Shown: piece by piece, positions 3,174 to 6,932 of the stretch
How the letters are laid out: every line of letters begins with the position of its first letter
How positions within the stretch are numbered: position 1 is the first letter of the stretch
From: a virus
Reading direction: 5' to 3' (one strand)
Length of the DNA stretch: 34,310 nucleotides
IMG/VR virus record: IMGVR_UViG_3300042549_000377
Span: 1-34,310 of that record
Program-made: the position numbers and the translations under genes
Notes under the pieces: model-generated
The model's input: the letters and a program-made list of their open reading frames with translations, nothing else
The model's database searches: none
Told to the model about the DNA's origin: nothing

Positions 3174-3850
3174 TATTCCTGAACTCCAAACGTGAGATGT
3201 CCAATTCTACCCTTTACGCCAACAGCACCAACTTGTGCGTAAGCGTCTTTAGGCAAAAACTTGTAAAACCCATGCTCTAAGTCACATTCGTTACCCTGCA
3301 ACCAGTTATCCAAAAGATAATCTTGTATTGTCTTAAGCGTCTGCTGCATCAATGTTTTCATAGACGGGCAAAAACTATACAAACAAGTCTTTAGGTACAT
3401 ATCCGTTCCCGCACTTGGCAAACCCGTGTAGAAAGGGTGCAAAAAGACCGCCTGAGACGGTTTATCATGCTGGGCATAGCTAAACGCATCCGTTAGCTGA
3501 TAACGCCCTGACAGCTTAAATACGCGGTCATACTGCGATATGTCGTTATCCAACACTTCAGCAGTCATGTACGATTCCATAGCAGATTTAACGTAACCCA
3601 TTGGTAATCCGCTATCTGCTATTTGTTTTCTACGCTCTGTCTGCCAGTAAGGAATAATCTTGACGCTATCAGGTATGTCTTTTAGCAACGCACTAGGGTC
3701 ATAAAGCGAACCCTCTAGCAGCCATATGTCAGCATCCGGTAGTCTGTTGTAAACGCTGTTAAATGTATCTAGCGTCTCTTTAAGCCTAAACTCTGGATTG
3801 CTGTCGTAAGACGGGATTAACGCGCTAGTAACTAAAAATAAACTACTCAC
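3173..3850 (-). CDS. Glycosyltransferase-like protein
   Basis: A 225-residue protein directly after the GT32 gene and overlapping it by eight bases. The N-terminus (MSSLFLVTSALIPSYDSNPE) reads like the first beta strand of a GT-A-type fold. The middle contains YDRVFKLSGRYQLTDAF, a pattern I associate with glycosyltransferase-like proteins in phage and LPS clusters, and GTDMY at about residue 148. I see no clean DxD motif. Paired with the GT32 gene it probably helps decorate a surface, either host LPS or the virion. It could also be a sugar-binding relative without activity. Confidence 0.5.
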   Translation of the reverse strand: MSSLFLVTSALIPSYDSNPEFRLKETLDTFNSVYNRLPDADIWLLEGSLYDPSALLKDIPDSVKIIPYWQTERRKQIADSGLPMGYVKSAMESYMTAEVLDNDISQYDRVFKLSGRYQLTDAFSYAQHDKPSQAVFLHPFYTGLPSAGTDMYLKTCLYSFCPSMKTLMQQTLKTIQDYLLDNWLQGNECDLEHGFYKFLPKDAYAQVGAVGVKGRIGHLTFGVQE

Positions 3851-4496
3851 GTTCTTCTAGGCACTCTTGCATATACAAAGTGTCGTATATTTGTCGAGTG
3901 CTGCCCCAGAATTGTTTAGCAAAAACATGACCCTCGCCTGTGTATTTTTGTCCCGTAAAGTGTTCAGGAATAAAATAATGGGATGGGTAAATTGTAAGGT
4001 TAGGGTACTGGAACTTTTCCCAGACGCTCGTTAACCGAACCGGACCAGTCGCTTTCCATGCTGGTAGGTCTGAAATGTCATCTGCGTAGATGTCCTCAAT
4101 AATCTGACCTATGAACGGGCTGGACGCTTGTGCAGCCAGATAACCGTTTGCCAGTAGTCCAAGGCGCTTTATTTCGTTTTCCCAACAACAAAACTCAGTA
4201 GCCTCCATTAGCCAAGACGGTAGCGGTTTTAAACACACGCTGTCGGCATCTATAGCAAAGCCACCATGCTCGTAAAGTATTTCGTAACGCATTAGGTCTG
4301 CAATGCCGCAAAGTTCTTGCCGTTGGGCAAATGTTTGCATATGTTTAGCATTGCGCCAAGCATTGTTAGATAAGTCCTCGTTGCCCCAGACCTTGACTAC
4401 ATAACTAGGATTCATCTTGATCCATGTGTTTATGCAGTTATCTGGACGCTTTGATTCATCACCTACCCACACGATGTGGATTTTCTTCGGGATCAC
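3843..4496 (-). CDS. GT32-family glycosyltransferase (OCH1-like, DXD motif)
   Basis: A 217-residue enzyme likely to transfer a sugar from a nucleotide donor. It opens with IPKKIHIVWVGDE, has the diagnostic ADLMRYEILYEHGGFAIDAD stretch (residues 66-85) with Asp83-x-Asp85 for metal and donor binding, and then LKPLP. I chose the GTG start. A longer frame reaches an ATG 57 bases upstream, but that would place an intrinsic terminator inside the gene. GGTGA lies just before the GTG. This is the first gene after the terminator and so the first of the late operon. It may alter host surface sugars or the virion; the acceptor is not known. Confidence 0.82.
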   Translation of the reverse strand: MIPKKIHIVWVGDESKRPDNCINTWIKMNPSYVVKVWGNEDLSNNAWRNAKHMQTFAQRQELCGIADLMRYEILYEHGGFAIDADSVCLKPLPSWLMEATEFCCWENEIKRLGLLANGYLAAQASSPFIGQIIEDIYADDISDLPAWKATGPVRLTSVWEKFQYPNLTIYPSHYFIPEHFTGQKYTGEGHVFAKQFWGSTRQIYDTLYMQECLEERE

Positions 4497-4505
4497 GTTA
4501 TCACC

Positions 4506-4531
4506 AAAAAAAAGCCCGAACTCAATCGGGC
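4506..4531 (-). terminator. Intrinsic terminator just before the late operon (tR'-like)
   Basis: On the minus strand GCCCGA, a six-base loop and TCGGGC are followed directly by eight T. It lies 54 bases after the stop of the small gene at 4586-4765 and 9 bases before the GT32 start. A transcript entering the late genes from upstream must pass it. With a Q-like antiterminator encoded at the end of the early operon, this is a candidate lambda tR'-type control point (inference). Confidence 0.85.
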
Positions 4532-4585
4532 AAAGAACCAAGGAGATATACAAGAAAGTGCGGAGAACACTTCCCCACGCAAATT

Positions 4586-4765
4586 TTACAGCTTTTTAAC
4601 TTTAGACACAATAGGTTGTGGTTTTTTAGCATAAATAGACTCTATGTGGTGTCCACTAATCAAACTAGGCTTTTCCAGAACTGCCATTGAGCCGGGTCTG
4701 GACACTACGCTATGCAAGCTAAATCCTTTGTACATCTTGTCACCAGATAAGTTGTGGGTTTCCAT
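4586..4765 (-). CDS. Small protein between the control region and the late terminator
   Basis: A 59-residue protein with segments METHNLSGDKMYKGFSLHS, AVLEKPSLISGHHIESIYA and a Lys-rich end. No domain is recognised. The frame extends upstream to a TTG, but the ATG used here is the first reasonable start; a further ATG at 4735 has GGTGAC upstream and could be the true one. It is followed after about 50 bases by an intrinsic terminator, as expected for a short transcript unit. It could be a real early leader gene or a chance frame. Confidence 0.5.
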   Translation of the reverse strand: METHNLSGDKMYKGFSLHSVVSRPGSMAVLEKPSLISGHHIESIYAKKPQPIVSKVKKL

Positions 4766-4807
4766 AAAGCAGGATTTCCGATTAAAAAATAAAACATGGG
4801 TAGCCAA

Positions 4808-5252
4808 GAGTGCAAGTGCTTGCCAAAGAACTTAGGTCTGCTTTTGCTACCCGATACCACTAGATTGCTAAAGCCTAGCCCCACAGGTAAACATTAGCAT
4901 AATAATCCTGACGGTTGTAAAGATTTTTTCCCAAACGGGATGTTTTTGTAAATTATGAATACAGTTTTACTGTTTATTACCGATCAGGATTATCTGGCAA
5001 TACTTTCCCCAAGGGTGATAAGCCTGTAGTTTCCTACGCTTTATCTGCCTGACCCATATATACCTGTACTGATATATACCAGTCCTACCGGAGTTAATGT
5101 TCAATCGAGTACAGGTCTTGTATCACCATGTCCCTGTATCTTGTGCTGTACCCATTTAAGTCAGCGAGGCTTGCATACGGGTGCTGTATAGCCTATGTTT
5201 ACTTCCACGCAGCCCATCTAGGCTCTTACTATCGTGTGGAGTACGGGACAAT
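4808..5252. promoter_or_regulatory. Divergent intergenic control region with several inverted repeats
   Basis: No convincing gene is seen. The following inverted repeats are perfect: GCAAGTGCTTGC (4812-4823); ATAATCCTGA (4902-4911) with its complement at 4984-4993; ACAGT-TTT-ACTGT (4961-4973); and ACCTGTACT (5062-5070) with its complement at 5108-5116. The word ATATATACC occurs twice (5055-5063 and 5072-5080), 17 bases apart. Early genes run right from here and late genes left, so promoters and operators for both should be in or near this stretch. I could not identify a clear sigma-70 promoter. A replication origin is also possible but not shown. Confidence 0.55.
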
Positions 5253-5341
5253 AAAAAACCGCTTTAGTCTGTACCCCGTGGACCCCAACCCTAAGGTTGA
5301 CCCCCTTTCGGGGCGAGATACATTCTAAAGCGGTCTTTTTT
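5253..5341. terminator. Three-helix structured element, likely bidirectional terminator or small RNA
   Basis: AAAAAACCGCTTTAG (5253-5267) pairs with CTAAAGCGG and the following TCTTTTTT (5325-5341), leaving one bulged base. Inside, TGTA (5270-5273) pairs with TACA (5319-5322). Two hairpins are enclosed: CAACC-CTAA-GGTTG (5286-5299) and CCCC-TTTC-GGGG (5302-5313). Read on the minus strand the last hairpin has a GAAA tetraloop. T runs follow the outer stem on both strands. Ordinary terminators do not enclose a multi-helix junction, so a stable small RNA is also possible. Confidence 0.7.
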
Positions 5342-5397
5342 ATCGGAGGTCCAATCCAATAATATACACAAATTATACACGAAAAATAATAATATCT

Positions 5398-5476
5398 ATT
5401 AGGGAAAACACCTATGTTTATTTGTGCTGAAATGTATACAATTTAGTACATGGCACTAACGCCAGTAACCAAGGAG
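5398..5476 (+). promoter_or_regulatory. Early-operon leader/promoter region, copy 1
   Basis: This stretch precedes the first early gene and is repeated before the gene at 8909. Shared elements in order: TAGGGAAAACACCTA (TAGG-N7-CCTA, 5400-5414), the 18-bp palindrome, and CAGTAACCAAGGA with the ribosome site (5463-5475). TATACAAT within the palindrome could be a -10 box, but no good -35 is seen. The repetition in front of two transcription units suggests a shared promoter and operator. Confidence 0.65.
5433..5450. promoter_or_regulatory. 18-bp palindromic site, copy 1
   Basis: TGTATACAATTTAGTACA, with core AATT and TGTA/TACA ends. It differs from the copy at 8863-8880 at three positions; two of these, TAC...GTA against TGC...GCA, change in step so that pairing or half-site symmetry is kept. 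It could be a dimer-binding operator or an RNA hairpin in the leader. Confidence 0.6.
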
Positions 5477-5483
5477 AAACAAA

Positions 5484-5603
5484 ATGACACGAATCGAAAA
5501 CGCAGTAAAGTTGATTAAAGAAATGTTCCCAGAGTTGCCCGATAAGTCTGTTGATCTTCTTGCAAAAATGATTGACCTCCAGCTTAACAAATTAAACAAA
5601 TAA
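5484..5603 (+). CDS. First early gene: 39-aa helical protein
   Basis: Read directly: begins MTRIENAVKLIKEMFPELP and ends in a leucine/lysine helix (LLAKMIDLQLNKLNK). AAGGAG lies eight bases before the ATG, a strong ribosome site. It is the first gene after the repeated early leader. The sequence suggests two amphipathic helices and a possible small dimer. No family is recognised. As a first early product it might modify host functions, but this is only a positional guess. Confidence 0.65.
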   Translation: MTRIENAVKLIKEMFPELPDKSVDLLAKMIDLQLNKLNK

Positions 5604-5637: not shown

Positions 5638-5880
5638 ATGTACCAAAACATAATCACCACACGCATAACAGGAATACCCGCCAAGATAGGCGTAACCCAC
5701 GTTTACAGGCAGTCTGGCAGCTTTATGAAAAACGAAGTATCAGACTTGGATTACCACGGCTATGTGGAGTTTGACTACGAGATATTAGATATGCGTGGCA
5801 AACGTGCTGTATGGCTAGAGCGCAAGCTGACAGACTCTATCCGTACCCAGATTGAGCAACAGATAGCGGAGGTAGTATGA
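5638..5880 (+). CDS. Conserved phage hypothetical protein, 80 aa
   Basis: An 80-residue acidic/aromatic protein (ITTRITGIPAKIGVTHVYR; YHGYVEFDYEILDMRGKRA; WLERKLTDSIRTQIEQQI). I recall a conserved phage family of this length and pattern, with no known function, often near recombination or methylase genes. The predicted structure is a beta sheet followed by a C-terminal helix. A strong ribosome site (AAGGAG) precedes the ATG. The end carries the GCGGAGGTAGTATGA junction that also ends the methyltransferase gene. Confidence 0.8.
   Translation: MYQNIITTRITGIPAKIGVTHVYRQSGSFMKNEVSDLDYHGYVEFDYEILDMRGKRAVWLERKLTDSIRTQIEQQIAEVV
5866..5880 (+). repeat. 15-bp direct repeat, left side of the methyltransferase gene
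   Basis: GCGGAGGTAGTATGA holds the Shine-Dalgarno GGAGG, the start ATG of the methyltransferase and the stop TGA of the gene before it. The same 15 bases occur at 6918-6932 with the same role for the next gene. A shorter form, GCGGAGGTA, occurs near 7973-7981. Confidence 0.9.
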
Positions 5881-6932
5881 GGTATCTGTCAGTCTGCGCT
5901 GGAATTGAGGCTGCGACTGTAGCTTGGCATGATCTTGAGTGGGAGGCTGCCGCTTACTCTGAAATTGAGCCGTTTCCATCTGGTGTTTTGGCACATCATT
6001 ACCCAACCGTTCCCAACGTAGGGGACATGACTAAATTTAAGGAGTGGGACATTGGATCAATTAACCTTCTTGTCGGAGGAACTCCCTGTCAGTCTTTCTC
6101 AATCGCAGGGCTTAGAAAAGGACTGGATGATCCGCGTGGCAACCTCATGCTTACCTATCTTGCCATTGCTGCAAAATATAGCCCCAGATGGTTGGTTTGG
6201 GAGAACGTCCCCGGCGTATTGTCATCCGGGGGGGGGGGGGACTTTGGAACTTTCCTCGGAGCGTTGGGGGAACTCGGGTATGGGTTCGCCTACAGAGTTC
6301 TTGACGCTCAATACTTTGGAGTGGCACAGCGCCGCCGCCGTGTGTTCGTTATCGGATGTCTTGGAGACTGGAGAAGTGCCGCAGCGGTTCTTTTTGAGCG
6401 CCACAGCTTGTGCCGGAATCTTGCGCCGAGCAGAAAAACGAAAAAAGACGTTGCCGGACCAATTACGGCTGGCATTGGAAAAGGTTGCAGAGGGACAGAG
6501 GGAGTAGAAAGTAATTGGGCTGTGCCTGTTTCTACCTTTTCAACTCCGGCGATAGGAAATATTGTGCAAGATGATGTTTCGTCCACAATGACAAAAAACA
6601 CAGGATCAGGAGGCGAGACACAGAATCCTGCTTATGTTATGCAGACTATGGCATTTAGCGGTCAGATGTCTAATCCGCAAGTTGACATCAATATGACTCA
6701 GACATTGGGGGCAAAAAACCCAATGGCGGTTATGCAGCAAATGGCAGTACGCCGCTTAACACCAGTAGAGTGCGAAAGATTACAGGGCTTTCCTGACAAC
6801 TACACAAACATACCGTGGCGTAATAAACCAGAATCGCCTGATAGTCCAAGATACAAAGCACTAGGAAACAGTATGGCAGTACCAGTTATGAAGTGGATTG
6901 GCGAACGAATTAACCAAGCGGAGGTAGTATGA
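5877..6932 (+). CDS. C5-cytosine DNA methyltransferase
   Basis: A 351-residue enzyme that transfers a methyl group from SAM to carbon 5 of cytosine. All main motifs are visible: SAM-binding motif I (SVCAGIEAATVAW), motif IV GGTPCQSFS with catalytic Cys71, motif VI WENVPG (108-113), motif VIII QRRRRVFVIG (151-160), motif IX RRLTPVECERLQGFPDNY and motif X YKALGNSMAVP. The target domain is short (about 170-285) and Thr/Ser/Gln-rich. No matching restriction gene is seen, so it is an orphan methylase, probably for protection from host restriction. Gly118-Gly121 are encoded by a run of 13 G; one G more or less would truncate the enzyme before motif VIII. Identical 15-bp junctions flank the gene. 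Confidence 0.97.
   Translation: MRYLSVCAGIEAATVAWHDLEWEAAAYSEIEPFPSGVLAHHYPTVPNVGDMTKFKEWDIGSINLLVGGTPCQSFSIAGLRKGLDDPRGNLMLTYLAIAAKYSPRWLVWENVPGVLSSGGGGDFGTFLGALGELGYGFAYRVLDAQYFGVAQRRRRVFVIGCLGDWRSAAAVLFERHSLCRNLAPSRKTKKDVAGPITAGIGKGCRGTEGVESNWAVPVSTFSTPAIGNIVQDDVSSTMTKNTGSGGETQNPAYVMQTMAFSGQMSNPQVDINMTQTLGAKNPMAVMQQMAVRRLTPVECERLQGFPDNYTNIPWRNKPESPDSPRYKALGNSMAVPVMKWIGERINQAEVV
6228..6240 (+). repeat. 13-G homopolymer inside the methyltransferase gene
   Basis: Thirteen G in a row after TCATCC encode four Gly and the first base of Asp122. Such tracts slip easily in replication, transcription and sequencing. With 13 G the methyltransferase frame is open. With 12 G translation moves into the alternative frame that ends at 6507. 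Confidence 0.95.
6280..6507 (+). CDS. Overprinted reading frame within the methyltransferase gene, 75 aa
   Basis: In the +1 frame relative to the methyltransferase, an open frame (open back to at least 6052) encodes a 75-residue protein from an ATG at 6280. It holds SLSDVLETGEVPQRFFLSAT and CAGILRRAEKRKKTLPDQLR. I recall this motif from many short phage proteins annotated as separate genes, which suggests a family repeatedly seen in this register. It could be a real second product, the tail of a frameshift fusion made at the 13-G tract, or a side effect of constraint on the main frame. No clear ribosome site is seen before the ATG. Function unknown. Confidence 0.42.
   Translation: MGSPTEFLTLNTLEWHSAAAVCSLSDVLETGEVPQRFFLSATACAGILRRAEKRKKTLPDQLRLALEKVAEGQRE
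6918..6932 (+). repeat. 15-bp direct repeat, right side of the methyltransferase gene
   Basis: GCGGAGGTAGTATGA, identical to 5866-5880. It provides the ribosome site and start codon for the next gene and the stop of the methyltransferase. Recombination between the two copies would remove the methyltransferase and leave an intact junction between the genes on either side. Confidence 0.9.

Follow-up and report, generated by a model that had tools for sequence, protein, structure and literature searches.

What is the structured element at positions 5253–5341 of the 34,310-nt viral DNA stretch analyzed here (IMG/VR record IMGVR_UViG_3300042549_000377, referred to below as the window)? A preliminary description, made from the letters alone, recognized three helices where a plain terminator needs one stem, and suggested a stable small RNA, a put-like antitermination element, or a bidirectional barrier between early and late transcription.

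Fold and strand of the element

The expected parts, namely a TGTA/TACA helix, two hairpins, one of them with a GAAA loop on the minus strand, and an outer stem of about 15 pairs, were all found at 5253–5341. The stem ACCGCTTTAG/CTAAAGCGGT accounts for 10 of these pairs, and A5/T5 beyond one extra C extends it to about 15. On the minus strand, this outer stem, P1 (5334–5325 with 5267–5258), closes a structured RNA of ∼57–60 nt and encloses P2 (5322–5314 with 5278–5270), P3 (CCCC-GAAA-GGGG, 5313–5302), and P4 (CAACC/GGTTG, 5299–5286). When 5253–5341 is folded alone, the energy is −45.9 kcal/mol for the minus strand (z −7.1), compared with −34.1 kcal/mol for the plus strand (z −5.1). For neither strand was any of 200 shuffled sequences as stable.

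We scanned IMG/VR for the outer-stem pattern CCGCTTTAG, a gap of 40–68, and CTAAAGCGG. Among the 31 loci retrieved (loci are numbered with the prefix L), 15 are true relatives. The others were judged to be chance matches, other stems, or other elements (L004, L006–L008, L012–L014, L016, L019, L020, L022–L025, L030, and L032). All 15 true relatives share P1, P2 (TGYRYCYCG/CGGGGTRCA), the CCCC/GGGG hairpin, a second hairpin varying in sequence, and, in the minus sense, a U-tract after the element. The P1–P4 domain (5258–5334, minus strand) is defined by the minus-strand fold and by covariation in alignment A3 (18 sequences), in which 97.2% of the cells are paired and 12 of the 32 pairs show double changes. 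Its covariation score is 0.290, compared with 0.159 for shuffled and less than 0.09 for slid alignments. The preliminary description had named, as the outcome contrary to its proposal, relatives losing the inner helices while keeping the outer stem. No close relative behaves in this way; in distant relatives the inner hairpins are replaced by others, and the outer stem and the pseudoknot described below are retained.

The wobble pairs of P2 distinguish the two strands. In relatives, U-G and G-U pairs are kept where the plus strand would have A-C mismatches; at one P2 position U-G is found in 15 of 18 sequences, and pairing there is feasible on the minus strand only. Together with the lower fold energy, these pairs point to the minus strand as the functional one. 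A DNA-level element, such as a replication origin, was ruled out, since the invariant G-U pairs suit one RNA strand only, and a protein-coding reading was ruled out by the double compensatory changes and the indels. Searches of the window for ORFs and tRNAs yielded no coding or tRNA explanation for the element.

In the minus sense, every close relative carries a further hairpin, P0, upstream of the element (5343–5359, TTGGA/TCCGA with the loop TTGGACC). In the 18-sequence alignment, 100% of its cells are paired, and double changes occur in three of the four pairs tested. The loop contains the motif TGGACC (5348–5353), which pairs with GGTCCA (5279–5284), located just before the 3′ side of P2, to form a pseudoknot. 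These two strands covary to unrelated sequences, TTGGACGTC/GACGTCCAA in L026 and TTGGCGGA/TCCGCCAA in L003. In a comparison of 54 diverse loci, pairing was better between cognate than between swapped strands (p = 1.5e-15), and the second strand lies mostly 27–30 nt ahead of the U-tract. The element is thus not the closed unit first proposed: it needs the upstream hairpin at 5359–5343, and a conserved 3′ core (5246 to ∼5000) comes after it.

An extended −10 box, TG-TATAAT (5372–5379, with the box itself at 5377–5372, minus strand), lies upstream of P0, and every close relative has a −10 box aligned with it. The window box predicts an RNA start near 5365. The −35 of the window promoter is poor. 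A sigma70 promoter scoring at least 9/12 is found at this place in 46 of 106 loci (43%), compared with 4.7% of control windows. In a number of loci, automatic calling of start sites and −10 boxes was unsuccessful.

The 3′ core and the whole RNA

In relatives, conservation runs ∼250 nt beyond the U-tract. This 3′ core, which we call type i, extends from 5000 to 5246 on the minus strand. Its alignment A1, of 47 diverse sequences, contains 45 invariant columns, and 89.6% of the cells are paired under a ten-helix, two-pseudoknot model. Double changes are found in 35 of the 49 core pairs, and the covariation score is 0.476, compared with 0.166 for shuffled and less than 0.10 for slid alignments. 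The core begins with hairpin H0 (CGT/ACG, 5233–5246), which is 93.6% paired with double changes in two of three pairs. The H0 loop TCCA (5240–5237) forms a second pseudoknot with TGGA (5207–5204; 92.5% paired, double changes in all four pairs). Hairpin H4 (5145–5165), with the invariant loop TTAAATGG, is 99.6% paired and shows double changes in five of six pairs; in hairpin H5 (5110–5138) all six pairs show them. The H5 loop GGTG (5127–5124) pairs with CACC (5017–5014) in a third pseudoknot that closes the 3′ end. As both strands are invariant in 47 of 47 sequences, this pairing is compatible with the alignment only, and unproven by covariation. A weaker pairing, CAAG/CTTG, is possible at the 3′ end of the core (94% kept, two double changes).

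We predict, from the alignments, a minus-strand RNA of ∼365 nt running from ∼5365 to ∼5000, of which the three-helix element would be the 5′ domain. Of the stable small RNA suggested at first, the RNA nature stands and a short terminated form is possible, but the element itself belongs to a larger RNA. The view that it is more than a plain terminator is upheld by the covariation, the pseudoknot, and more than 115 relatives, and a minus-strand RNA with the folds described here almost certainly exists.

The core pattern TTAAATGGSKAC...AACATTMAC retrieved at least 119 viral loci, nearly all of them true. The core is carried by at least 115 IMG/VR loci, every one in viral records. With a covariance model built from the central core, one copy each was found in 18 of the 20 viral records searched, and the two records without a match contain other core types. 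Rfam 15 gave no match in the window at gathering scores; in a loose search of the window, the best match was at chance level (23.5 bits for a cutoff of 90), and a freshwater-2 match at 5399–5486 (plus strand) was weak and far under its cutoff. In seven relatives, Rfam detected RF02932 in L005 and nothing else. Among known phage records compared by blastn with several queries, some of which had no match, MW202674.1, from a spring, is the sole relative; L005 has a weak match to MW202545. The plasmids searched contain no relatives. The exact core pattern had no hit in GTDB bacterial genomes, and the core model detected no copy among ∼790 genomes around Glaciimonas, a weak test in which few candidates were scored per genome; both results are weak evidence for absence from bacterial genomes. 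Literature searches retrieved no report of this RNA. Comparative evidence strongly supports a new, large, and widespread noncoding RNA family of environmental bacterial viruses, absent from Rfam. In the deposited automatic annotation of MW202674.1 (L003), the region 4923–5419 contains short "hypothetical proteins" opposite to the RNA strand; these are probably not genes.

Large RNAs known from phages include GOLLD, whose 3′ part is conserved and 5′ part variable, and ROOL, which has several pseudoknots (PMC12286853). The window RNA resembles them as a large structured phage RNA without an assigned function. It differs in giving no match to their Rfam models even at a loose threshold and in its smaller size (∼365 nt). 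In addition, a search for tRNA genes in the window was negative.

5′ domains and core types

One kind of 5′ domain precedes three core types: type i, the Betaproteobacteria-1 RNA (RF02932), and a third. Betaproteobacteria-1 reportedly comes from a 2017 paper. By scanning viral contigs for it, we found L206, L207, and L255, whose 5′ domain matches that of L059 with 99% identity over 108 nt. The core following this domain is Betaproteobacteria-1 in the first three loci and type i in L059, and there is no similarity between the two cores. In L005 and L031, Betaproteobacteria-1 lies directly behind the 5′ domain (RF02932 match of 95.6 bits). The third core type, found in L015, L028, L029, and L036, ends in ACCCTTGGGG, as does the window core. 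Type i cores, in turn, come with many different 5′ domains.

Type i and Betaproteobacteria-1 are alike in the 5′ domain that they share in phages, in having either their own promoter or a position directly behind a gene (toprim primase-like in the case of Betaproteobacteria-1), and in that no terminator is seen after Betaproteobacteria-1 (by eye, uncounted). Their cores, in contrast, are distinct by sequence: core model R1 does not match Betaproteobacteria-1, and the RF02932 covariance model (cutoff of 49.4 bits) has no match in the window. In Burkholderiales genomes, Betaproteobacteria-1 is mostly without the 5′ domain and occupies varied intergenic sites or a position right behind the toprim primase-like gene. 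Burkholderiales prophages in which it comes right after the stop codon of this gene are L159, L160, L166, L168, L172, L193, L202, L204, L205, and L214–L216. In several genomes of Paraburkholderia and Caballeronia, Betaproteobacteria-1 is present in up to four copies.

The 5′ domain is unevenly distributed among the copies of both RNAs. When the type i core lies directly behind an upstream gene, the 5′ domain with its U-tract is absent (six of six distinct loci), and it is present in 74 of the 77 other distinct loci (Fisher p 2e-7). L123, a further apparent exception, was set aside as it involves a spurious 60-aa ORF. Similarly, none of the 21 phage Betaproteobacteria-1 copies directly after a gene has the 5′ domain, compared with 21 of the 32 others (Fisher p 4e-7). 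Absent from gene-adjacent cores and present in most others, the 5′ domain therefore goes with the RNA's own promoter. On this comparative evidence, it is quite likely an exchangeable control module.

The presence of the same 99% identical leader on unrelated RNA cores is a modular design unseen in the families compared here, and it places Betaproteobacteria-1, an Rfam orphan, in the same phage context. We see about an even chance that phages share a swappable cassette, consisting of a promoter and a pseudoknotted, terminator-ended leader, placed before unrelated large noncoding RNAs that would all belong to one functional system, with Betaproteobacteria-1 as one part and the window core as a second.

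Gene neighborhood and the terminator-like end

In 46 loci, a Cro-like regulator gene lies just upstream of the RNA on the same strand, with ERF, SSB, and exonuclease genes opposite in direction. Replication-type genes are found downstream of the RNA in many loci, and a small-terminase gene in L005, L010, L011, L018, and L036 (identified by profile in L010 and by eye in the others). Two positions are rich in operator-like palindromes (TTAAGNTANCTTAA): one ahead of the Cro-like gene, the other 45–126 nt after the RNA. At the latter position they occur in 33 of 87 distinct loci (38%), compared with 1.1% of background windows; almost none are found at the RNA's own promoter. The phage repressors probably bind at these palindromes and at the similar sites beside the Cro-like gene. 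The presence of palindromes on both flanks but not at the promoter in between argues that, in these phages, the RNA has a promoter of its own and forms a separate gene flanked by two regulated promoters. This argument is drawn from the relatives, as the window itself yielded neither a Cro-like gene nor an operator. A perfect TTAAGNTANCTTAA palindrome separates the RNA from the next operon in L003, L045, L049, L077, L104, L112, and L118.

Alternatively, the RNA could be a cis-acting leader of the downstream operon that modifies the transcribing polymerase and so lets it read through later terminators, as do EAR and put, the latter binding RNA polymerase to suppress termination in cis. The position after the Cro-like gene and before replication or terminase genes is that of nutR in lambda, and in 95 of 112 loci the RNA and the ORF that follows it share a strand. 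In 113 loci, the 250 nt that follow the core contain no intrinsic terminator, and a strong one is located 360–460 nt after the RNA in the window clade (the window, L033, L056, L059, L065, L098, L127, and L132). In the window, this terminator, GCCCGAT-TGA-GTTCGGGC TTTTTTTT, lies at 4506–4531 on the minus strand, before a glycosyltransferase gene. However, the identity of the downstream genes varies among relatives, and opposite-strand genes come next in four loci (L047, L067, L094, and L147). Moreover, the second, operator-bearing promoter that immediately follows the RNA in 38% of loci indicates that the downstream operon has its own start. Comparison with put also argues against such a leader. 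The HK022 put element is ∼70 nt long, consists of two stem-loops, and is present in two copies per phage, putL and putR (PMC9378689). Like put, the window RNA belongs to a phage, lies near early promoters, and is suspected of a regulatory role in termination. Its 5′ domain, in contrast, measures ∼110 nt, combines P0, P1–P4, and a pseudoknot, ends in a U-tract, and is followed by the 250-nt core; each of 20 records contains at most one core match, and not one copy per early operon. The put-like identity suggested at first is thus abandoned. As a whole, the neighborhood favors a separate RNA over an operon leader; cis action is still compatible with it, but we consider a leader of the downstream operon unlikely.

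The U-tract after P1 (5253–5258, minus strand) gives the 5′ domain its terminator-like end. It precedes the core in 106 of 115 loci (92%, among the matches listed), compared with 15% of background windows. As in intrinsic terminators, a G+C-rich stem is directly followed by a U-tract (P1 and U6). The loop of P1, by contrast, measures ∼57–60 nt, where intrinsic terminators have about 3–8 nt, and P1 is absent from the terminator scan. A stem around a structured loop of ∼60 nt departs from the canonical terminator, and termination there may be poor. By inspection, no antiterminator pairing of the kind that alternates with the terminator fold in attenuators was seen in the folds or alignments at hand. 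The late leader of lambda, the 6S RNA, starts at pR′ and ends at tR′: a promoter is followed by a short structured leader, a terminator-like end, and then genes. The window RNA shows the same order of promoter, structured leader, terminator-like end, and downstream genes, but in lambda no conserved RNA core follows the terminator.

The best explanation, which we hold to be somewhat likely, is that the element forms the 5′ domain of a phage noncoding RNA gene that stands separately on the minus strand, and that it acts as a promoter-proximal, terminator-like control leader. The link of this domain with its own promoter and the conserved U-tract both lead to this reading. Whether attenuation is the mechanism is close to a toss-up on the present alignments. 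A different role, as a structural cap that only guards the 5′ end from decay, would also account for a 5′ domain found in own-promoter copies and missing from copies cotranscribed with an upstream gene. The U-tract would then be a protein site (e.g., for Hfq) or a chance extension of the stem, and a few loci, such as L110 and L147, do combine their own promoter with a closed 5′ hairpin devoid of U-tract. This role is less probable still than that of an operon leader: the U-tract is kept in 92% of loci, including loci with no A-rich upstream strand, which argues that it is not a mere stem extension. A simple bidirectional terminator, or a barrier separating early from late transcription, would fit the T-run that follows the stem on both strands in the window but is highly improbable: only the minus-strand U-tract is conserved, no long plus-strand gene enters the element, the structure extends past the stem and begins at a minus-strand promoter, and covariation is seen in the inner helices as well as in the pseudoknot.

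Strand, pairing, pseudoknots, promoter, conserved U-tract, exchangeability, and the restriction of the 5′ domain to own-promoter copies come from sequence comparison. We infer a control-leader role, conditional termination, and a core acting in trans, as follows. The sigma70-type promoter ending at 5372 would start a minus-strand RNA near 5365. The first ∼110 nt would fold into P0 and the closed P1–P4 domain, locked by the P0-loop pseudoknot and ending in the U-tract. Most transcripts would stop there as a ∼110-nt RNA, with the 5′ domain serving as an intrinsic terminator that acts conditionally. The others, be they a simple fraction or a regulated share, would read through into the ∼250-nt core with its two further pseudoknots, which would then act as an RNA in trans. 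With no intrinsic terminator after it, the core probably owes its 3′ end to processing or to Rho. Termination by the leader and its control thereby become testable, as does the role of a constitutively promoted RNA between two repressor-controlled promoters.

Three further features of the window were recorded. A small minus-strand ORF (4586–4807) between the RNA and the strong terminator has counterparts at the same place in several phages, with the motif RPGSMxVLExPS. The first large minus-strand gene after the RNA (3843–4553) encodes a glycosyltransferase with a DXD sugar-binding region (PF04488). On the other side of the RNA, a run of about 12 G at 6228–6241, within a DNA methyltransferase ORF (5877–6932), is possibly a phase-variation tract or an assembly error.
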